A stretch of 7,620 nucleotides of DNA, taken from contig JAJYKO010000236.1 of NCBI GenBank assembly GCA_021788565.1, positions 1 to 7,620 on the forward strand, written 5' to 3'. Origin of the DNA: Chloroflexota bacterium (GTDB lineage Bacteria; Chloroflexota; UBA6077). Position numbers and translations under genes: made by a program. The notes below the pieces were generated by a model, which was given only the letters and a program-made list of their open reading frames with translations, was not told where the DNA came from and did not search any database. This document shows positions 2-7,620 of this stretch, one piece after another (the stretch's first letter is position 1; each line of letters starts with the position of its first letter).

Positions 2-346
2 GCGGCCTGGATGAAGAAAGAGTTTGGGATCGGGGTCGTGGCCGTGACGATCAGGGAGGCTCCGACGGTGCTGCGCGGCACTTGGCGAAGTATCGCTTTG
101 GCAGACCGGCTGTACGAGGGACGGGTGACTGAGTTGGAGTTGATCGACCGGGTGGGCTCGGGGGATGCCCATGCGGCCGGCTTCCTGTACGGCTATCTCG
201 TGGAGAACGATCTCCAGCGAGCCGTCGATATAGGAGATGCCATGAGCGTCCTGAAGCACTCCATCCCCAAGGACTTCGCCTACTTCACCAAGGAGGAGGT
301 GCTTCGCTTCGCCTCTTCCACTGGTGGGACCAAGATACTGAGGTAA
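2..346 (+). CDS. kdgK: 2-keto-3-deoxygluconate kinase, PfkB family (C-terminal part, 5' end outside window)
   Basis: PfkB/ribokinase-family sugar kinases of this type phosphorylate 2-keto-3-deoxygluconate to KDPG with ATP in the cytoplasm, the step before KDPG aldolase. The frame is open to the left edge (codons GCG GCC TGG precede the first ATG at 11), so this is the last ~114 residues of a protein that is normally about 300-340 residues long. The PfkB C-terminal signature is plain: DRVGSGDAHAAGF, residues 46-58 counted from the ATG at 11. It contains the anion-hole GSG and the catalytic-base Asp (D52). The downstream stretch LKHSIPKDFAYFTKEEV closely follows the KHTIPGDFN...EV tail of KDG kinases, with Lys replacing the usual Gly. 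The TAA stop (344-346) shares its last base with an ATG, so the gene is probably co-transcribed and coupled with the lactonase-like gene. Family is certain; KDG specificity is likely but rests on the tail motif. Confidence 0.85.
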   Translation, partial: AAWMKKEFGIGVVAVTIREAPTVLRGTWRSIALADRLYEGRVTELELIDRVGSGDAHAAGFLYGYLVENDLQRAVDIGDAMSVLKHSIPKDFAYFTKEEVLRFASSTGGTKILR

Positions 347-351
347 TGACG

Positions 352-1113
352 ATGGCCGAGAGCATCTATCGCATCAGGCCGATACTCACGGGAACAATGA
401 AGGTTGACCAGGGCGCCTATCTCACCTGGGGGCGGGGTGTGGGCAAGGAGGTGGTGATCCCGGCAACCGCATGGGTGATCGAGGGAGGTCCTTACCCAAT
501 TCTGGTCGATACGGGGATGGCCGACAGCGAGCGGGCCACCAGGTGGCACCACGACGGCATCCAGGAACCCGGCCAGGACATGCCCAGCCAGGTGCGGAAG
601 TTGGGCATCGATCCAGAAGAAGTGGGGCTGTTGATCATGACCCATCTACACTGGGATCATACCTTCAAGATGAATGCGTTCAAGAACGCGAGGCGGATCG
701 TGCACCGACGCGAGCTGGCCTTTGCTCTGGACCCTATCCCGCAGTACTACCGGTCCTACGAGGCTTATCAGCTGGGACTCGAAGCCGCCTTTAAGGGGCT
801 GGAGTTCGAGCTTGTGGACGGCGAGAGGGAGATACTCTCCGGGATAACCGTGTTCCCGACTTTCGGGCACTGTCCAGGGCACCAGGCGGTGGAGGTTCGG
901 ACCGAGAGGGGGCCGTACGTGATTGCCGGCGACGCCGTGATGGTGTATGACAACCTACGTGGCGACCCGGAGACCCGAATGCCGCTTATCCCGCCCGGCC
1001 GCTTCACGGACGCCGTCGCGTCCTGGGAAAGCCTGAAGGCGATAGCTGGACGCGCAACCCATGCCCTGCCGGGCCACGACATGCGGGTCTTCGACAAAGA
1101 GGTATACCCTTAA
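352..1113 (+). CDS. MBL-fold metallo-hydrolase, N-acyl-homoserine-lactonase-like
   Basis: This is a 253-residue metallo-beta-lactamase-fold hydrolase of the lactonase-like branch, without a signal peptide, so cytoplasmic. Numbering from the ATG at 352, the metal-binding motif HLHWDH covers residues 98-103 (H98, H100, D102, H103). GHCPGHQ at 172-178 supplies the next His, AGDAVM at 192-197 the bridging Asp (D194), and LPGHD at 239-243 the last His. An upstream VDTGM at 53-57 is the usual first fold signature. Length matches AHL lactonases (~250). A GAGG at 340-343 sits 8 nt from the ATG at 352 but only 2 nt from the alternative ATG at 346, so I prefer 352. The family hydrolyses lactones and other esters. 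Next to a KDG kinase, a sugar-acid lactone is as plausible a substrate as an acyl-homoserine lactone. The TAA stop runs straight into a G-run repeat. Fold is certain, substrate unknown. Confidence 0.88.
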   Translation: MAESIYRIRPILTGTMKVDQGAYLTWGRGVGKEVVIPATAWVIEGGPYPILVDTGMADSERATRWHHDGIQEPGQDMPSQVRKLGIDPEEVGLLIMTHLHWDHTFKMNAFKNARRIVHRRELAFALDPIPQYYRSYEAYQLGLEAAFKGLEFELVDGEREILSGITVFPTFGHCPGHQAVEVRTERGPYVIAGDAVMVYDNLRGDPETRMPLIPPGRFTDAVASWESLKAIAGRATHALPGHDMRVFDKEVYP

Positions 1114-1203: not shown

Positions 1204-1899
1204 GTGTCAGAGATTCCTGTTGACCTGGTAGTCTTCGACCTGATGGGCACTGTGGTGAAAGATTCTGGGGCTATGGAGAGTGCTCTGAAGGGCGTCCTGA
1301 CGCACTTCTCCGTTCCGTTCACGCAGCCGGACCTGGGTGCGATGCGGGGAGCCGGCAAGGTCGCCGCCTTCCGGGGGCTCATCGAGCGGACCATCGGCGC
1401 TGGCAAGGGTCCCGAGTGGAGCGTGGATCGCGCGAGGGAGATGTACACCACCTTCAAGCAGATGCTTCGAGAGGAGTACGCGAAGAACCCAACCCAGGAG
1501 ATCACCGGCGCCGAGGCCACCATGCGGTGGTTGCGGGATCGGGGTGTCAAGGTGGCCGCGACCAGTGCCCTCGACATCGATCTCACCGATCCCATGCTGG
1601 AGCAGTTGGGCTGGGCCGAGGGGATCTTCGACTGCAGGGTGTCCACCGAGGAAGTTCCGCAGGGGCGGCCGGCGCCCTACATGATCTTCCTGGCCATGAT
1701 GAGGACGGGGACGGTGGAGGTGCTGCGGGTGGCCGCGGTTGGCGACACCCCCTTGGACCTGAAGGCGGGGAACAACGCGGGCGCAGGGTGGGTGATAGGC
1801 GTGCTGAGTGGCGCGCACCGCCTGGGGACCCTCGGTGCCACCCCCCACACCCACATCCTGAACAGCGTCGCGGATCTGCCGAGGCTTCTGGAGGGGTAG
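1204..1899 (+). CDS. Phosphonatase-like HAD-superfamily hydrolase
   Basis: This 231-residue cytoplasmic HAD hydrolase resembles the phosphonatase-like (PhnX-like) subgroup. Motif I is FDLMGT with nucleophile D12. The usual second Asp is Met14, whereas PhnX has Ala there. Motif II is AATSALD with T120, motif III is GRPAPY with R155 (Arg, as in phosphonatase, instead of the common Lys), and motif IV is GDTPLD with D181 and D185. The small helical cap between residues ~20 and ~100 carries K52 in RGAGKVAAFRGL. That is close to Lys53, which forms the Schiff base in PhnX, but equivalence is unproven. The GTG start at 1204 is chosen because MSEIPVDLVVFD places motif I at the normal distance, and GGTGA (1189-1193) lies 10 nt upstream. 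It follows the lactonase gene in the same direction after a 90-bp repeat-filled spacer, so co-transcription is likely. Phosphoglycolate-phosphatase-like activity is the alternative. Substrate unknown. Confidence 0.85.
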   Translation: MSEIPVDLVVFDLMGTVVKDSGAMESALKGVLTHFSVPFTQPDLGAMRGAGKVAAFRGLIERTIGAGKGPEWSVDRAREMYTTFKQMLREEYAKNPTQEITGAEATMRWLRDRGVKVAATSALDIDLTDPMLEQLGWAEGIFDCRVSTEEVPQGRPAPYMIFLAMMRTGTVEVLRVAAVGDTPLDLKAGNNAGAGWVIGVLSGAHRLGTLGATPHTHILNSVADLPRLLEG

Positions 1900-2000: not shown

Positions 2001-2255
2001 ATGAGGTCCGTCGGGGTTCGAGAGCTGAAGGAGCGGACTTCCCAGATATTGAGGGACGTCGCCGAGAAGGGTGAAAGCATCCAGATCACACATCACGGCC
2101 GCGTGATGGCTCGCCTGGTACCACCGCCGAAGGTCGCCTCCCGTGAGGAGATCGAGCAATGGCGGGAGGGAGCGCGCAGGCTCACGGACGAGATCGCCAG
2201 GCACGTCACCCAGCCAGTGGACTCTTCCACGCTGATGCAGGACGAGCGTCGATGA
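2001..2255 (+). CDS. Phd/YefM-family antitoxin
   Basis: This 84-residue protein has the Phd/YefM N-terminal DNA-binding and dimerisation domain at residues 1-42. VGVRELKERTSQILRDVAEKG is followed by ITHHGRVMARLVP, the typical 'I(T) xxGxxxAxLvP' strand-turn-strand. The charged, probably flexible C-terminus (residues ~50-84) would wrap the partner toxin and neutralise it. The ATG start has a strong GGAGG at 1992-1996, 4 nt upstream, and an upstream promoter and palindrome. The TGA stop overlaps the toxin ATG as ATGA, the classic coupling of antitoxin and toxin translation. Length is normal for the family (75-95). The pair is a self-contained module sitting after the HAD gene and shows no functional tie to the metabolic genes. 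Confidence 0.88.
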   Translation: MRSVGVRELKERTSQILRDVAEKGESIQITHHGRVMARLVPPPKVASREEIEQWREGARRLTDEIARHVTQPVDSSTLMQDERR

Positions 2256-2665
2256 TCGTTGACGCCAGCGTGTGGGTGAGCTACTTCCTCGCGGAGGACG
2301 TTCGCCACATGGAGACGGTAGCCTGGTTGGACGAAATGTTGAGCTCCAGGCAATCGATAGCCGTTCCTACCCTTGTACTCCCCGAGGTTGCGGGTGCCAT
2401 CGCTCGACGGTCGAGCAGGCCTGATCTAGGCTTGAGAGCGGCCCAGCAGATCATGGAGTACCCATTTGTCGACCTGGTCTACCCTGACAGGACGATTACC
2501 CTGCTGGCTACCCGGGTCGCCGCTACCCTCCCCATGAAAGGCGCCGACGCCATCTACGTTGCCGTCGCAAAGACTCTCGAACGCCCCCTGGTGACCTGGG
2601 ATGTGGAGCAGCGGGCTCGAGGGAGCCTACTCATCTCCGCTCGGTCCCCGGTAGAGGCCGGCTGA
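2252..2665 (+). CDS. vapC: VapC-type PIN-domain ribonuclease toxin
   Basis: This is a 137-residue PIN-domain protein. VapC toxins are magnesium-dependent endoribonucleases that cut tRNA or rRNA when free of antitoxin. The four acidic positions are visible: D4 in MIVDASVWV, E45 in LVLPEVAGAIARR, D99 in KGADAIYVAVA and D117 in LVTWDVEQRARG. Length fits VapC (125-145). The frame is open 93 bases further upstream to an ATG at 2159. The start at 2252 is chosen because the PIN core begins immediately with MIVDAS, the ATGA overlap with the antitoxin stop is canonical, and AGGA (2239-2242) lies 9 nt upstream. No transmembrane segment or signal peptide. All catalytic residues are present, so the toxin appears intact. 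The cognate antitoxin is the Phd-type protein just upstream. Confidence 0.9.
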   Translation: MIVDASVWVSYFLAEDVRHMETVAWLDEMLSSRQSIAVPTLVLPEVAGAIARRSSRPDLGLRAAQQIMEYPFVDLVYPDRTITLLATRVAATLPMKGADAIYVAVAKTLERPLVTWDVEQRARGSLLISARSPVEAG

Positions 2666-2998: not shown

Positions 2999-4201
2999 CT
3001 ACGCCCACTCGCCGCAGCCGTAGGCGGCCTCGTGCTCTGCCTGGGGGCGCCACACCGACATCAGTTCGTCGTGGCCCAGCACCTCGGCTTTGGTCTGTTT
3101 GCCGTTTGCAACGGCCAGCACCTCGGAGAATATTTCCTCGCCTGCCTCCCGCAAGGTTTTGGTGCCGTCGATCACCTGGCCGGTGTTGATGTCCAGGTTG
3201 TCCAGCATCTTCTCGAAGGTCTGGGTGTTCCCGGTGAGCTTGAGCACCGGGGCGATGGGGTGCCCGGTGGGGGTGCCTCTGCCGGTGGTGAAGAGGACGA
3301 TCTGACTGCCGCCCGCCACCATCCCCGTGGTCGAGTCGGCGTCATGGCCGGGGGTATCCATCAGGTGGAGACCCCGCTTGGAGTAGGTCTCGCCGTACTT
3401 GAGCACACCTACGAAGGGCGAGGTCCCCGCCTTGCGCGCGCCACCCAGCGACTTCTCGACGATGGTGCTGACGCCGCCCTGGATATTGCCGGTCGAGATC
3501 AGCGCCCGACGTTTTCCGGAGAGGTCGTTTTCGCTCTGGCGGGTCAGCGTCGCCTCGCTGAGGCGAATCACTCTGTAGATCTGCTCCGCTACCTCGGGGC
3601 TAGCTGCCCTTGCCGCGAAGAGATCCTCCGCGCCCAGCAGTTCGGTGACCTCGGAGATCATCACCGTGCCGCCCGCCGCCACCAGCATGTCTGCCGCGAT
3701 CCCGACGGCAGGATTCGCCACGATGCCCGAGAAGGCGTCGGTCCCGCCGCACTCGGTCGCCACGGCCAGATGCTCCAGGCCGAACTGCTCCCGCCGGATA
3801 GTGGAGACCTCCTGCACCAGCTTTCTGGCCAGGGAGGCGCCCATCTCCAGCGCCCGAAGGCTTCCGCCACACTCCTGGATGACGATCTTCTCGACCGGCT
3901 TGCCGGAGGGCGCGATCCCGTCGGCGAGCTCTTCAGCCCGCAGCCGCTCGCAACCGAGGCCGACCACCAGCACCGCCGCGACGTTAGGGTGACGTCCCAG
4001 ATTCTTCAGGGTCCTGGCAGTGATCTCCATGTCGAGCCCCACCTGACTGCACCCCACGTCGTGGTGCAGCGCAACCGCGCCCTGCACCTGCTCCGCGATC
4101 CGCCTCGCCGTGCCGGTGGCGCAGTAGGTGGATGGGATTACCGCCACCAGGTTCCGCACCCCAACCCGGCCATCGGGTCGAGGGTATCCCCAGAACTTCA
4201 A
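2999..4201 (-). CDS. UxaA-family dehydratase, large (C-terminal domain) subunit
   Basis: This 400-residue protein matches the C-terminal domain of altronate/galactarate dehydratases (UxaA/GarD family), which remove water from sugar acids to give 2-keto-3-deoxy acids. Family landmarks in order are GYPRPDGRVGVRN (5-17), HHDVGC (46-51), GLGCE (81-85), ECGG (110-113), ECGGTDAFSG (150-159), MDTPGHD (281-287) and TTGRGTPTGHPIAPVLKLTGN (305-325). The conserved Cys/His residues are those expected around the iron site. The start is TTG at 4201-4199, overlapping the small-subunit TGA stop as TTGA. It is supported by GGAGG (plus positions 4209-4213) 7 nt away and by the family N-terminus. The split into two genes is common outside enterobacteria. 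SuyB, the large subunit of (2R)-sulfolactate sulfo-lyase, has the same architecture and is the main alternative. Substrate is not decidable from sequence. Confidence 0.9.
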   Translation of the reverse strand: MKFWGYPRPDGRVGVRNLVAVIPSTYCATGTARRIAEQVQGAVALHHDVGCSQVGLDMEITARTLKNLGRHPNVAAVLVVGLGCERLRAEELADGIAPSGKPVEKIVIQECGGSLRALEMGASLARKLVQEVSTIRREQFGLEHLAVATECGGTDAFSGIVANPAVGIAADMLVAAGGTVMISEVTELLGAEDLFAARAASPEVAEQIYRVIRLSEATLTRQSENDLSGKRRALISTGNIQGGVSTIVEKSLGGARKAGTSPFVGVLKYGETYSKRGLHLMDTPGHDADSTTGMVAGGSQIVLFTTGRGTPTGHPIAPVLKLTGNTQTFEKMLDNLDINTGQVIDGTKTLREAGEEIFSEVLAVANGKQTKAEVLGHDELMSVWRPQAEHEAAYGCGEWA

Positions 4202-4500
4202 CTCAGCGCCTCCAGGATCTTCTCCTTGCCCCGCTTGCTACCCAGGTTGTGCACGTGAACCCACGCGCCGGGCTCGATGTCCTCCGTCGCCTCGCCTATC
4301 ACTTCACCGTACTTCAGGACGTTTTCGCCCTTGGCGATCCCGCGGAGGGCGAACTTGTGCCCAAAAGGGATCCTTTCCCGTATCTCGATGGAACGGAGCT
4401 CGCCGTTCACCCGCACGGTGCAGCACTCACCGGGCGCCAGTTCCGCAACGGCAACCGCCACGCTGTCCTTCTGGTCTATCAATATCGCCTTTTCTGCCAT
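4198..4500 (-). CDS. UxaA-family dehydratase, small (SAF domain) subunit
   Basis: This 100-residue SAF-domain protein corresponds to the N-terminal domain of altronate dehydratase and forms a complex with the large subunit encoded directly downstream. The core RIPFGHKFALRGIAKGENV (43-61) with KYGEVIGEAT (63-72) and WVHVHNL (80-86) is the standard signature; the His residues in FGHKFA and HVHN are the conserved ones. The ATG at 4500-4498 has AGGAG (plus positions 4509-4513) 8 nt upstream. The stop TGA overlaps the next gene's TTG start by 4 bp, which favours equimolar coupled translation of the two subunits. It lies 247 bp after the larA-like gene, separated by a repeat-rich spacer holding a possible operator. 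SuyA of sulfolactate sulfo-lyase is built the same way, so the reaction could be dehydration or desulfonation. Confidence 0.9.
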   Translation of the reverse strand: MAEKAILIDQKDSVAVAVAELAPGECCTVRVNGELRSIEIRERIPFGHKFALRGIAKGENVLKYGEVIGEATEDIEPGAWVHVHNLGSKRGKEKILEALS

Positions 4501-4527
4501 TTACGTTGCTCCTGTGCCTTTGTCACT

Positions 4528-4558
4528 GGGAGACGGGGGGGAGTGGGAGACGGGGAGA
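4528..4558 (+). repeat. GACGGGG-family G-run repeat, copy B (opposite orientation)
   Basis: Four G-runs (3, 7, 3 and 4 bases) with loops of 4, 3 and 4 nt lie on the plus strand. The core 4532-4558 begins GACGGGG and ends GACGGGGAGA. It lies just upstream of the minus-strand small-subunit gene, so the mRNA here would be C-rich. It is inverted with respect to copy C at 4719-4744 in the same spacer. Confidence 0.6.
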
Positions 4559-4614
4559 CAGTTGGAGGGGGAGAAGACTCGGTTCGAGCCATACATGATG
4601 GGCAAGAGATGTTA

Positions 4615-4633
4615 AGTATGTGATACATATACT
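4615..4633. promoter_or_regulatory. Imperfect palindrome, candidate GntR-type operator upstream of the uxaA pair
   Basis: The core TATGTGATACATA (4617-4629) has perfect 5-bp arms around a 3-nt centre, and outer bases AGTAT/ATACT extend it to 19 bp. The inner GT-NNN-AC pattern matches the general operator form of FadR-subgroup GntR regulators, which often control sugar-acid genes. It sits about 115 bp upstream of the small-subunit start. No regulator gene is in the window and I could not assign a convincing -35/-10 pair next to it. Confidence 0.4.
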
Positions 4634-4684
4634 CCCGGACATCCTGCGCTATCCTACCGATCCTGTCCATTCTGTTTCGTACCC

Positions 4685-4718
4685 CCTCACCCCAACCCTC
4701 TCCCAGAGGGAGAGGGAG
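4685..4718 (-). repeat. REP-like hairpin repeat, copy 2 (CCCTCTCCC/GGGAGAGGG)
   Basis: A 9-bp perfect stem, CCCTCTCCC (4696-4704) with GGGAGAGGG (4708-4716), has a 3-nt loop. Read on the minus strand it carries the tail TTGGGGTGAGG and matches the copy at 1162-1195 at 31 of 34 positions. It lies 30-63 bp downstream of the larA-like stop codon, so in that transcript it could fold as a stable 3' hairpin. No T-run follows. Confidence 0.75.
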
Positions 4719-4744
4719 TTCTCCCCGTCCCCGACTTCCCCGTC
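4719..4744 (-). repeat. GACGGGG-family G-run repeat, copy C, 3' of the larA-like gene
   Basis: Three 4-base G-runs lie on the minus strand at 4741-4738, 4732-4729 and 4726-4723. They start 6 nt after the larA-like TAG stop and directly precede the hairpin repeat at 4685-4718. The unit begins GACGGGG and, like the copies at 2955-2980 and 4532-4558, contains GACGGGGAGA at its far end. Confidence 0.6.
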
Positions 4745-4747
4745 ATA

Positions 4748-5998
4748 CTATTCCCAGGTTAGATTCCCCTGCGAATCGCGTGGCATCGGGCCGAGGGGCC
4801 GGAGCACTTCGTACTCGGGGTTGCCCATCAACTGCTCCAGCGGACGCGCGGAGACCCAGAACTCGCCCAGGCTCAGGGTGTCCTTGATCCGAACCAGGTC
4901 GAAGACGTCCGCCGTCCGATTGGCGGAGCGCAGGGCTACCTCGACGGCGTCCACGTCTGTGTTCAGGGCGATGGGAAGCTTCCCGCCATCCGGGAAGTTA
5001 CTGGTGAGCATATTCCAGTACGTCTTCTCGCGGTCGAACTTGTCCGCGAGCCTGGTGGTTGTAAAGTCCGCCACACCGACGGCGGCGCAGTTCCCGTGGG
5101 ACTCGGCGCAAACGTCCAGCACCACCAGCCTCTTGTACATGGGCGTGAATGGGGCTTCATGTGTGCGCCGCCACAATCCCACGACGTTCATGTCCATGCC
5201 GGTGCCGGAGATGTTCTTCCCGATTTGGTCTATCACCAGCACGTCCAGTTCGTCGAAGGGAACTCGGGGAAGTAACGTGGACGCTAGCTTCAGGCACTCC
5301 CTGTCGGTCTCGTGGATATCTTCAGGCGCGGCGGCGCAGATCTTGGTGGTCTTGTGGTAGGCGTTCTCCACGGTCCCCACGCCCAGGATTATCTTGCCGG
5401 TTCCGATCATGACGCTCGCGGCTGGTGCGATGTTGGCAAAGCCGTAGTCGTGGATCGCCTCGGCGCCTCGCTGCTTGCCCAGGCCAATCGCCATCATCTT
5501 GCACAGCCCGCTCTCGATGGGCGCGCGGAACGACGTGTGGTTCTTTATTCGGTTGACCACGATGACGCCGTCGGCCTCGTAGGCGTTCCTGTCCATGTGG
5601 ACGGTCGCGCCCATGGGAGTCTTGCCGATTGGTACGGTCTCCATGGAGGAGAGGATCGGCATACCCATCGCGGGCTCGGTGACGCCGTACTCCCCGATCA
5701 GCTCCACCTGGCCTTCAGCCGTTGCGCCGCCGTGACTGCCCATAGCCGGCACGATGAACGGTCTGGCGTCCAGCTTCTTCAGCTCTTCGCCTATGGTCTT
5801 CAGGATCAGCGCGATGTTGTCCACGCCGCGGCTGCCCGCCGTGAGCGCGATCCGTTGGCCTGGCTTGACCCGGCCGGCGAGATTAACGCGAGAGAGCTCC
5901 TTCCGGACCTCGCCCGCGACGTCTTCGATCTTCTCGGTTGAAAAGTGCCGCCGAACCAGGGCGACCTCCGGCATCGGCGCTCTAGGAAAACCTGCCAT
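4748..5998 (-). CDS. LarA/DUF2088-family nickel-dependent hydroxyacid racemase/epimerase homologue
   Basis: This 416-residue protein belongs to the lactate-racemase (LarA) superfamily, whose characterised members invert the C2 centre of 2-hydroxy acids with a covalently bound nickel-pincer nucleotide. Visible landmarks are ALTAGSRGVDN (51-61, R57 likely the substrate Arg), PAMGSHGGATAEGQ (84-97, H89), RIKNHTSFRAP (150-160, H154) and GLCKMMAIGLGKQRGAEAIH (164-183). K167 and H183 are 16 residues apart, exactly as Lys184 (cofactor anchor) and His200 (nickel ligand) in Lactiplantibacillus LarA. The Asp that precedes the Arg by three residues in LarA is Ala54 here, so the substrate probably differs from lactate. 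The ATG at 5998-5996 has GGAGG (plus positions 6004-6008) 7 nt upstream, inside the last codons of the dehydrogenase; the genes overlap by 17 bp. The cofactor genes larB/C/E are not in the window. Confidence 0.87.
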   Translation of the reverse strand: MAGFPRAPMPEVALVRRHFSTEKIEDVAGEVRKELSRVNLAGRVKPGQRIALTAGSRGVDNIALILKTIGEELKKLDARPFIVPAMGSHGGATAEGQVELIGEYGVTEPAMGMPILSSMETVPIGKTPMGATVHMDRNAYEADGVIVVNRIKNHTSFRAPIESGLCKMMAIGLGKQRGAEAIHDYGFANIAPAASVMIGTGKIILGVGTVENAYHKTTKICAAAPEDIHETDRECLKLASTLLPRVPFDELDVLVIDQIGKNISGTGMDMNVVGLWRRTHEAPFTPMYKRLVVLDVCAESHGNCAAVGVADFTTTRLADKFDREKTYWNMLTSNFPDGGKLPIALNTDVDAVEVALRSANRTADVFDLVRIKDTLSLGEFWVSARPLEQLMGNPEYEVLRPLGPMPRDSQGNLTWE

Positions 5999-6977
5999 CT
6001 TCTCCTCCGTACCCGTTCCAGATACCCATTCGTTTCGCTTCGTCCATGATCCGGCTGGCGACTATCACCCCGATCCGCGCCTGGGACTCGCGGGTCACCC
6101 CCGCGATGTGGGGCGAGAGGATGCAGCTAGCATCGTCCAGCCCCAGTAGAGGCGTGCGGAAAGGTACGCCCCGCGTGGGCTCTTCGTCGAAAACGTCAAC
6201 GGCCGCCCCGGCGATCCTCTTCTCGACGAGGGCATCGCGAAGGGCTTGCTCGTCGACCACCGGCCCGCGGGCGGTGTTGATCAGGAAAGCGTGAGGTTGC
6301 ATCATCGCCAACTCACGCGTAGAAATCAAGTGCCGGGTCTGGTCGGTCAGCGGGCAGTGCAGCGAGACGATGTCCGAACGCCGCAGCAGCTCTTCGAAAC
6401 CCACCATCTCTATCTGCTGGGAGGGGGTAACGCCATCCCAGACGCCCGGGTCGTAGACGATGCGCACGTAGGGATCGTTGGCTATCACCTTCATGCCGAA
6501 CGCCAGCGCCAGCCGCGCCACCCGCATTCCGATCTGGCCGATGCCGACTATCCCGAGGGTCCTTCCCTCTAGCTCGAGAGAGCCGTACTTGACCCGATCG
6601 AAGACGCCGGCCTTCACGTCGTTATTGGCTTGGACCAGTCGCTTGGTGACGTTGAGCATGTAGCCGATGGTGGCTTCGGCCACCGACTGTGAGCTGCCCC
6701 CGGGAACGTTGAACACCAGGATGCCCCGCTCGGCGGCTGCCTGGTGATCGATGTGGTCCGTGCCGATGGAGGCTATCGCGATGATGCGGAGCTTGTCCGC
6801 GACCTCGATCACCTGCCTGGTGATGAACTGGTCGACCCGCATCAGGATGACCTCATACCCAGGAACCGCGTCGATCAGTTCCGGGCCGTCCAGGTAAGGC
6901 CGGATGGTCAGCTCGAAGTGCTTCTCCAGGATCTCCAACCCCGCCGGGTTGATCTTGCCGATGACTAAGATCTTCAT
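5982..6977 (-). CDS. D-isomer-specific 2-hydroxyacid dehydrogenase
   Basis: This 331-residue cytoplasmic enzyme belongs to the phosphoglycerate-dehydrogenase-like family and interconverts 2-hydroxy and 2-oxo acids with a nicotinamide cofactor. The Rossmann fingerprint GIVGIGQIG lies at 142-150. D168 in IANDPY closes the second strand, which favours NAD over NADP. The catalytic triad is visible as R237 in NTARGPVVDE, an acidic cluster DVFDEEP (261-267, E266 the likely Glu) and H290 in SPHIAG. Length and lack of an ACT domain match the short (non-SerA-regulatory) members. The ATG at 6977 has GAGGGG (plus positions 6987-6992) 9 nt upstream. Its last codons (GGEDG) double as the Shine-Dalgarno and start of the larA-like gene, so the two are clearly coupled. 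(S)-sulfolactate dehydrogenase SlcC and various hydroxypyruvate/gluconate reductases are in the same family. Substrate unknown. Confidence 0.92.
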   Translation of the reverse strand: MKILVIGKINPAGLEILEKHFELTIRPYLDGPELIDAVPGYEVILMRVDQFITRQVIEVADKLRIIAIASIGTDHIDHQAAAERGILVFNVPGGSSQSVAEATIGYMLNVTKRLVQANNDVKAGVFDRVKYGSLELEGRTLGIVGIGQIGMRVARLALAFGMKVIANDPYVRIVYDPGVWDGVTPSQQIEMVGFEELLRRSDIVSLHCPLTDQTRHLISTRELAMMQPHAFLINTARGPVVDEQALRDALVEKRIAGAAVDVFDEEPTRGVPFRTPLLGLDDASCILSPHIAGVTRESQARIGVIVASRIMDEAKRMGIWNGYGGEDGRFS

Positions 6978-7010
6978 TCGACTTTTCCCCTCATCGATTA
7001 CTTCTGTTAA

Positions 7011-7093
7011 GGGGTCAGGGGGCAGGGGTCGGGGGACGGAAACAGGATGGGGAGGATGAGTTGTCTGTTCCCTGACCCCTGACCCCCGCCCCC
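7011..7093 (-). repeat. Inverted G-run repeat pair forming an 83-bp stem-loop/quadruplex element
   Basis: The left arm (7011-7035) has four G-runs of 4, 5, 4 and 5 on the plus strand with loops of 2-3 nt. The right arm (7070-7093) has four G-runs of 5, 5, 4 and 3 on the minus strand with loops of 1-3 nt. The arms are imperfectly complementary (GGGGTCAGGG against CCCTGACCCC), and complementarity continues inward (GGAAACAG near 7038, CTGTTCC near 7066). It starts within the final base of the RraA-like TAG stop and ends 34 bp before the dehydrogenase start. It could fold as a hairpin or as quadruplexes. It has no T-run, so it is not a standard terminator. Confidence 0.65.
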
Positions 7094-7620
7094 TACCATT
7101 TGGATGGTGGCAACACCTGGCGCATATCGGTCAGGGTCGCGCCGGCGGCCAGCATATCGATAATCCGCCGCTCGCGCGCGTCCTTCTCCTGGGCCTGACG
7201 AAGCACGTCCGCGGCCATCTCCAGCGGTATCACCACGATGCCGGTGTCGTCGGCGACCACCACGTCCCCGGGGCGCACCTGCACCCCCGCGATGGTGACA
7301 GGGCCGTTCAGCTCCATCGCCTCGACGCGGTACTTACCGGACTTCGGGGTCACGTGGGCCGACCAGGTGGGGAACTGCTTCTCGCGGATGGTTGCCACGT
7401 CCCTCACGCCGCCGAAGATCACGGTGCCGGCCATCCCGCGAGCGACGGCAACGGTGGTGGAGAGGCCGCCCATGCACGAGACTTCGGCCCCATCGGCGTC
7501 CACGACGATCAGGTCGCCGGGCTCGGCGACGGCGTACGCGTCCCGGTCTGCCAACCTCGCCACCGCCTTCTCGGCGAAGGATTGCGCCACCGCTAGCCGC
7601 TCGACCATGTAGCGCATGGT
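7093..7620 (-). CDS. RraA-family protein, HMG/oxaloacetate-aldolase-like (N-terminus outside window)
   Basis: The visible 175 residues are the C-terminal part of a RraA-fold protein. Family members are either 4-hydroxy-4-methyl-2-oxoglutarate/4-hydroxy-2-oxo-acid aldolases releasing pyruvate, or the E. coli RNase E inhibitor RraA. The hallmark CMGGLSTTVAVARGMAGTV (48-66 from the Met at 7617) leads to GGVRD at 69-73, whose Arg-Asp pair binds substrate and the divalent metal in the aldolases. FPTWSAHVTPKSG (82-94) and PGDVVVADDTGIVVIP (116-131) complete the signature. The reading frame runs off the right edge (ACC precedes the Met). The usual first ~50 residues are therefore missing and no start is called. 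Being first in a run of catabolic genes, an aldolase role fits better than RNase E control. Its stop runs directly into a G-run repeat. Confidence 0.88.
   Translation of the reverse strand, partial: TMRYMVERLAVAQSFAEKAVARLADRDAYAVAEPGDLIVVDADGAEVSCMGGLSTTVAVARGMAGTVIFGGVRDVATIREKQFPTWSAHVTPKSGKYRVEAMELNGPVTIAGVQVRPGDVVVADDTGIVVIPLEMAADVLRQAQEKDARERRIIDMLAAGATLTDMRQVLPPSKW

Follow-up and report, generated by a model that had tools for sequence, protein, structure and literature searches.

Why should the gene for a nickel-dependent isomerase of the LarA type lie between those for a hydroxyacid dehydrogenase and a predicted sugar-acid dehydratase split over two chains? The question is raised by a stretch of 7,620 nucleotides from a Chloroflexota bacterium (contig JAJYKO010000236.1, assembly GCA_021788565.1; the whole stretch is called the window here), whose minus strand carries, in order of transcription, rraA, hadh, larA, uxaS and uxaL (Table 1). 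An initial annotation had proposed this run of an RraA-like aldolase, a D-2-hydroxyacid dehydrogenase (HADH), a LarA homologue and a split UxaA, and family profiles recover all five genes. The genes hadh and larA overlap by 17 bases and uxaS and uxaL by 4, with longer gaps of 115 bases between rraA and hadh and of 247 bases between larA and uxaS. The answer that we favour, and hold to be probable, is that the cluster forms a sugar-acid catabolic module, in which a LarA protein of group 22 of the nickel-pincer-nucleotide (NPN) isomerases acts as a C2 epimerase of aldonates or aldarates and feeds a dehydratase specific for one configuration.

How would such a module work? The group-22 LarA would invert C2 of an aldonate or aldarate by NPN chemistry, in which H89 and H154 are the two histidines of a proton-coupled hydride transfer, and would thereby make the C2 epimer that suits the dehydratase from the one that does not. 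The UxaSL pair would then remove water, by alpha-proton abstraction and beta-elimination, to give a 2-keto-3-deoxy acid, which RraA would most likely cleave to pyruvate and a second fragment, while HADH would act at C2 of the acid or on that second fragment. We infer the direction of the pathway, its substrate and the parts of RraA and HADH from gene content, families, fold, conserved residues and recurrent linkage, all of which are observed. Epimerisation and dehydration are the best-supported steps, the first resting on fold, residues and partner genes, the second being predicted from the family and its cysteines; for cleavage by RraA, the most likely continuation, the evidence is the family and a conserved Arg-Asp pair.

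The LarA assignment itself is firm. The window protein scores 484.6 bits against NF052515 (nickel pincer cofactor-dependent isomerase, group 22), for which the curated cut-off is 400, and the cut-off is exceeded by 20 of the 20 related LarA proteins scanned. The annotation as a LarA homologue was right as to family and too loose as to member, and can be sharpened to group 22, which NCBIfam names by number only. Sequence searches of solved structures gave no LarA match, neither with a single group-22 protein (no match) nor with a group-22 profile (a repeat-protein match only, E 0.009), and the fold was therefore tested with an AlphaFold model (pLDDT 89.9), which matches LarA structures. The window protein thus has both the Lar_N domain and the LarA fold by which the NPN-dependent isomerase superfamily is defined. 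In canonical LarA, the key residues are the catalytic H108 and H174, the cofactor lysine K184, the Ni-binding H200 and the phosphate-binding R75. R57, H89, K152, H154, E162, K167 and H183 of the window protein are invariant in 36 of 36 aligned LarA rows (window included); hhalign (E 2.1e-9) aligns R57, H89 and H154 with R, H and H of canonical LarA proteins, and leaves canonical D72 in a gap. By their motif and equal 16-residue spacing, K167 and H183 would be the cofactor lysine and the Ni-binding histidine.

The two residues that follow H154 are T-S in the window and mostly T-D, T-S, T-A or T-C in relatives. At the second of them, many of the 36 group-22 proteins have Asp; of the 15 proteins linked to UxaA, GarD or SuyB, 13 have Ser, Ala, Cys or Asn there, and the other two (from loci L045 and L171) have Asp. 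This may be a position that sets specificity, on counts that ignore ancestry.

The dehydratase was likewise correctly recognised as a split UxaA: the domain set of UxaA and GarD (SAF, second and C-terminal domains) is complete and spread over two chains. The nearest solved structure to the window UxaL is galactarate dehydratase (6u7l, 3.7e-62), yet the pair is not a member of the galactarate dehydratase model TIGR03248, the large subunit scoring 259.6 bits and the small one 44.8 (cut-off 730.85). UxaL keeps four cysteines (C27, C51, C84 and C151), which we mapped to Cys134/173/208/276 of the UxaA/GarD literature by order and spacing only; these four are reported to be conserved across UxaA and GarD, except in sulfolactate lyase (PMC6336799). 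In a tree of 22 rows, the window pairs with its relative in the metagenome-assembled genome (MAG) "Chloroflexi bacterium UBA6077" (76.5% identity), outside the SuyB, GarD and UxaA branches, to whose references it is 35-37% identical. Because the four cysteines are kept and the protein falls outside the SuyB branch, UxaSL is predicted to be a dehydratase. In haloarchaea, UxaL-UxaS-UxaL triplets occur (L159, 7989-10563, and L171, 3795-6447, in Haladaptatus and Natronococcus), whose two large subunits are complementary at the iron site, one having just the fourth cysteine and the other just the first three; from their sequences, they look as if the iron site were shared between two chains.

Could the pair instead be a sulfolactate sulfo-lyase (SuyAB), with HADH as a SlcC-like sulfolactate dehydrogenase and LarA as a sulfolactate racemase? 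SuyAB too is a UxaA homologue divided over two chains (PMC6336799), and it receives its substrate from racemisation by SlcC and ComC (PMC12421959). In a Rhodospirillales locus (L050), moreover, TctA and TctC lie near a group-22 LarA, as does a large subunit that shares 67% identity with a protein of the hps cluster of Cupriavidus pinatubonensis. We take this last protein to be SuyB from its hpsN/hpsO neighbours, and not from its own annotation. It has lost three of the four cysteines, as has the L050 subunit, both having L, R and I at the first three positions where the window UxaL keeps cysteines; the window protein is 35% identical to it and lies outside its branch, and Pfam and NCBIfam scans recognised no sulfonate genes among the window proteins. 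The retained cysteines and the tree position largely rule out SuyAB for the window, and we regard a sulfolactate cluster there as extremely improbable.

The L050 arrangement is a case of its own. At 9797-16305 of this locus (Rhodospirillales MAG51), and again in G343:C16, LarA-22 is convergent with TctA/TctC and a UxaA small/large pair, and the LarA of this type is a candidate nickel-dependent sulfolactate racemase in one lineage. A SuyB-type large subunit (at least 72% identity) is found in 38 of the 248 genomes of the order of Rhodospirillales MAG G005, two of the 38 being fragments. A LarA matching the L050 protein at E<=1e-60 lies within 10 kb only in G005 and G343; since these copies are 95-98% identical, the linkage is that of one lineage, and the idea that it is widespread was dropped.

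What, then, ties larA to uxaA elsewhere? The nearest loci found are two of UBA6077 (L001 and L002), whose LarA proteins are 78% and 71% identical to that of the window. The order larA-uxaS-uxaL recurs in UBA6077 (L001) and in Sporomusa (L168). A second line of evidence comes from the longest contigs of the nearest homologues, compared by size for UxaL rows 1-41, LarA rows 121-160 and HADH rows 241-260: exact sizes are common to the LarA and UxaL lists in five cases, HADH and LarA in four, HADH and UxaL in five, and all three lists in two, and of the nine contigs with a HADH orthologue that reach 4 kb or more, seven appear again among those listed for LarA or UxaL. Equality of longest-contig size is indirect evidence of a shared contig and not of adjacency; the control UxaL rows 42-120 (79 rows, 77 of them at no more than 62% identity) had no size in common with the LarA or HADH lists. 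Because of these matches among HADH, LarA and UxaL homologues, and of the gene order kept in UBA6077 and Sporomusa, the minus-strand run is not due to chance. At 8917-11692 of L002, LarA-22 converges with a tandem of two large subunits from which three of the four cysteines are missing, and this locus also holds a TctA transporter and an HADH. A gene for a family III CoA-transferase is found upstream of larA in L001 (8589-9776) and downstream of the run in Chakrabartyella piscis (L045, 16142-17341).

Conserved co-occurrence of larA-like genes with uxaA, on which the initial annotation had made its pathway depend, lies far above chance. Among the genomes searched, 29 from the UBA6077 class and 291 from that of C. 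piscis (Clostridia), 54 group-22 loci were found above cut-off in 37 genomes, 27 in each class; a PF20629 gene lies within 10 kb of seven of them (two in UBA6077, five in Clostridia) against 0.335 expected under uniform placement, about 20-fold more. Without the two lead genomes, four of 51 loci are linked against 0.28 expected (about 14-fold, Poisson P about 2e-4). These figures are to be read knowing that loci within one genome are not independent and that contig breaks lower the observed linkage count. In the 248 genomes of the order of G005, where the UxaL search covers matches at E<=1e-60 to one query, six of 40 loci are linked against 0.34 expected, two of the six being near-identical strains, and one of these two the source of the query; three of the six have 57-90 bases from uxaA to larA on the same strand.

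Relatives of the window LarA also occur in 114 plasmid records. Fourteen plasmid regions (13 of them annotated) were examined and, like the 36 rows of the LarA tree, were hand-picked, so that counts on them are descriptive. All 14 LarA proteins exceed the cut-off of group 22. Of the 13 annotated regions, six include a UxaA-family gene (Sulfitobacter, Pseudosulfitobacter, Rubrobacter at 7.3 kb, Loktanella, Sporomusa and Natronococcus) and three more another acid-sugar dehydratase, of the IlvD/Edd or mandelate-racemase type (Roseicitreum, Haladaptatus and Natribaculum). The remaining four are Paenibacillus (uxaC), Marinovum, Haloarcula (a glycerate-kinase-type DUF4147 gene) and Halocatena (a sugar ABC transporter). 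In Sulfitobacter dubius, HADH, RraA, a fused UxaA, LarA, LarC and LarB are encoded within one 14-kb stretch, together with an adenine nucleotide alpha hydrolase that we read as LarE, while Sporomusa termitida has a TTT transporter gene together with larA, uxaS and uxaL, these three in the order of the window. Marinovum and C. piscis have a set of TRAP, HADH, RraA, DgoK, Eda and LarA genes in common. A search for a transporter just outside the cluster was thus rewarded in relatives, where genes for TTT or TRAP transporters and for GntR regulators are its neighbours. On the LarA tree, the UxaA label needs nine changes, of which at least six are forced by well-supported branches; the pairing has therefore been repeatedly gained or lost, which favours shared function over common descent. 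It recurs in unrelated bacteria, including plasmids of Roseobacteraceae and Sporomusa, and in archaea (a haloarchaeon).

An NPN enzyme requires its cofactor, and absence of the cofactor genes had been named at the outset as fatal to the proposal. In the nearest genome available, UBA6077, each of LarB, LarC and LarE exceeds its cut-off, and none of them is on the contig of larA. Cofactor genes are embedded in the cluster itself in Sulfitobacter (larB, larC), Paenibacillus, Loktanella and Roseicitreum. In the class of UBA6077, all 17 genomes with a group-22 match have LarC (UBA6077, also positive, is counted separately); in Clostridia, LarC is present in 15 of 19 genomes with such a match against seven of 20 without, one of the seven being marginal.

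Several results nonetheless weigh against the proposed module. As many as 47 of the 54 group-22 loci have no UxaA gene within 10 kb (contig breaks lower the linked count), and the family is therefore not tied to UxaA; in the class of UBA6077 outside UBA6077 itself, no group-22 locus has one at that distance. In the nearest locus (L001), rraA and hadh are not tagged beside larA. On the LarA tree, 24 of 500 label shuffles need as few changes as the observed labels, the UxaA label thus being somewhat clustered, and the hand-picking of plasmid regions and tree rows counts on the same side. The passages of the LarA literature at hand name no activity for group-22 members. LarC is absent from four of the 19 Clostridia with a group-22 match (one of which, G136, has a partial match below cut-off) and was found in 12 of the first 15 genomes tried, the three negatives including C. 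piscis. The complete chromosome of this last species (G004) carries an intact-looking operon, UxaSL-TRAP-HADH-RraA-DgoK-LarA-GntR-Eda-KdgK-like (L045), and yet offers no LarC candidate at all, with LarB and LarE far below cut-off. NPN salvage, an unrecognised route or a non-functional LarA may account for the case of C. piscis.

Should the five genes then be seen as neighbours without a common pathway, or LarA as decayed? The operon of C. piscis, without NPN biosynthesis genes above cut-off, and the 247-base gap before uxaS in the window would fit this. The invariance of the key LarA residues in all 36 rows, the overlap of larA with hadh, the matching contig sizes of homologues with none in the control rows, and a linkage that exceeds expectation about 20-fold (about 14-fold when the lead genomes are left out) make it very unlikely.

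The partner genes bear on the substrate. In Clostridia (L110), LarA-22 belongs to a co-directional run that also encodes TctA, a galactarate dehydratase (a fused protein of 849.2 bits, cut-off 730.85), a glucarate dehydratase matched in part (487 bits for the 281 residues available, cut-off 828.7), a tartronate semialdehyde reductase and a DapA-model protein (both above cut-off) and a glycerate 2-kinase match (below cut-off); the expected TctC, at 7716-8783, gave no Pfam match at 1e-8, TctA having matched. This context is one of aldarate catabolism (galactarate/glucarate). The order uxaC, larA, SDR gene, larE, larB and larC in Paenibacillus is a hexuronate context. In L004, larA has as neighbours the genes of a PdxA protein and of a DUF1537 kinase, the latter matching D-threonate kinase best (below cut-off), a context of tetronates. 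D-erythro and D-threo tetronates are C2 epimers. In C. piscis, DGOK, Eda and a KDG-kinase-like protein are found near larA. What these partners have in common is that they point to a 2-hydroxy sugar acid, with a following enzyme that is sensitive to its configuration at C2.

The same partners bring in the main rival, according to which LarA-22 works downstream and racemises a small 2-hydroxy acid, such as glycerate, made by the dehydrogenase after aldol cleavage. The overlap of hadh with larA would suit it, HADH too working at the C2 of a hydroxy acid, as would the tartronate semialdehyde reductase and glycerate 2-kinase match of L110 and the DUF4147 gene of Haloarcula; glycerate-specific members are indeed described in the lactate racemase group (PMC11770544). 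Against this, LarA-22 of Sporomusa adjoins uxaS-uxaL, and the annotation within 8 kb shows neither hadh nor a glycerate gene; that of Paenibacillus adjoins uxaC, and that of L004 a PdxA protein and a D-threonate-kinase-like one. The T-S that follows H154 (mostly T-D, T-S, T-A or T-C in relatives) also differs from the F-F pair reported after the second histidine in lactate racemases (PMC11770544). We judge the downstream role to be unlikely, while giving it real weight, and retain LarA as the epimerase upstream of the dehydratase.

As for the other two enzymes, the Arg-Asp pair of RraA, which we take to be its metal/substrate active site, is kept in the window and in the RraA proteins of L045, L118, L162 and L169. 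The further motif that we assume for RraA, R-D-x2-E/D, has an acidic residue three places after the Asp; this position is Glu in L045, L118 and L169, and Thr in the window and L162. HADH has 20 close homologue clusters at 78-95% identity, after which identity drops to 52%.

The closest precedent is GntE, the D-gluconate 2-epimerase of Corynebacterium glutamicum and Thermotoga maritima (LarAH groups 19/20), which was shown experimentally to act on D-mannonate/D-gluconate and is likewise an NPN-dependent C2 epimerase of the LarA superfamily linked to uronate and aldonate metabolism (PMC7583248). GntE belongs to another LarA group and model, and its loop has E,V or E,S after the second histidine (PMC7583248; PMC11770544) where the window has T,S; the window LarA, lacking this signature, is not a member, and may work like GntE. 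In the route proposed for Thermotoga, the product goes to a gluconate kinase (PMC6978723), and not to a UxaA-type dehydratase as proposed here. UxaA, GarD and D-arabinonate dehydratase share with the window pair their domains, four cysteines and sugar-acid context, and heteromeric forms mentioned for the superfamily are SuyAB and, as unpublished data, an L-fuconate dehydratase (PMC6336799); the window UxaL differs in forming its own branch with UBA6077 and in its link to larA. With SlcC/ComC and SuyAB, the proposed module shares the inversion of C2 ahead of a configuration-specific lyase of the UxaA superfamily, although inversion is there the work of two NAD(P)-dependent dehydrogenases and here would be that of a single nickel enzyme with a dehydratase-type lyase (PMC12421959). 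Finally, a single-histidine LarA subfamily, with octameric structures solved, also has LarA-like proteins near carbohydrate genes; it lacks the second catalytic histidine (PMC12393405), which group 22 keeps. Titles and abstract openings among the matches listed mention neither a LarA-UxaA pathway nor a group-22 function, the gene-context COG Table S1 of PMC7583248, which may contain the association, lying outside this coverage. No pathway with exactly this gene set had been known to the initial annotation, and none was found among these matches, though pathways based on GntE are a partial precedent.

A broader proposal, which we put forward tentatively and think rather doubtful, is that group-22 LarA serves as a general nickel-dependent C2 "stereo-adapter" for UxaA/GarD/SuyAB lyases. 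It would have been paired, on several independent occasions, with aldonate and aldarate dehydratases (the latter in a galactarate/glucarate operon) and, in one Rhodospirillales lineage, with a sulfolactate lyase, there serving as a nickel-dependent sulfolactate racemase in place of the two dehydrogenases SlcC/ComC, while the LarA of C. piscis would work with scavenged NPN or with none.

The plus strand of the window carries other genes (Table 1), two of which, a "KDG kinase" and a "lactonase", had been counted in the pathway as sharing its chemistry. The kinase is represented by the last 114 residues of a PfkB protein, and its best NCBIfam models (KHG/KDPG aldolase-kinase fusion and haloarchaeal KDG/KDGal kinase) are both far below cut-off for this partial protein. 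The lactonase is nearest to 4-pyridoxolactonase and acyl-homoserine lactonase (AiiA-type) models, all below cut-off. Neither has a relative tagged beside larA in the two nearest loci, pfkB being tagged in L045 only, and both were rejected as pathway members; the epimerase/dehydratase core of the original pathway is supported by larA-uxaA linkage and by cofactor genes in relatives. A 34-nt interspersed repeat (1162-1195 and 4685-4718) has arms that are 91% complementary and 3.5 kb apart; the first lies in the intergenic region ahead of the HAD gene, the second in that separating uxaS from larA.

Table 1. Features of the 7,620-nucleotide window
Feature	Positions	Strand	Evidence and remarks
rraA-like gene	7093..7620	-	PF03737 1.1e-29; 5' end outside window; class II pyruvate aldolase / oxaloacetate decarboxylase family
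D-isomer-specific 2-hydroxyacid dehydrogenase (HADH), SerA-like, 331 aa	5982..6977	-	PF02826 (2-Hacid_dh_C) 5.5e-55; PF00389 4e-29
larA, nickel-pincer-nucleotide isomerase group 22, predicted C2 epimerase	4748..5998	-	Lar_N 1.2e-8; NF052515 484.6 bits, 2e-145
larA-uxaS gap, 247 bases	4501..4747		holds one arm (4685-4718) of interspersed 34-nt repeat
uxaA small subunit (uxaS), SAF domain, 100 aa	4198..4500	-	PF08666 1.4e-8; 3k3s altronate hydrolase 2.4e-14
uxaA large subunit (uxaL), 400 aa, predicted sugar-acid dehydratase	2999..4201	-	PF20629 (GD_AH_C) 1e-88; GD_AH_second 1.3e-40
PfkB sugar kinase, 3' end	2..346	+	PF00294 4.2e-6
Metallo-beta-lactamase-fold hydrolase	346..1113	+	PF00753 1.3e-20
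PhnX-like HAD hydrolase	1204-1899	+	TIGR03351 196.9 bits, cut-off 218.9
Phd/VapC-type toxin-antitoxin pair	2001-2665	+	between HAD gene and uxaL end

What would such a module mean for the family? In the most recent survey of the LarA superfamily, functions are predicted for no more than about half of the members (PMC11770544), and a recurrent partner of known chemistry narrows the substrates of group 22 to a short list, the C2 epimers of aldonates and aldarates. If the proposal is true, it would explain how bacteria and archaea can live on sugar acids in the "wrong" configuration and be spared an oxidation and re-reduction; it would also bring nickel into the sugar-acid catabolism of marine and gut habitats, and would provide a predicted enzyme class for making rare sugar acids.

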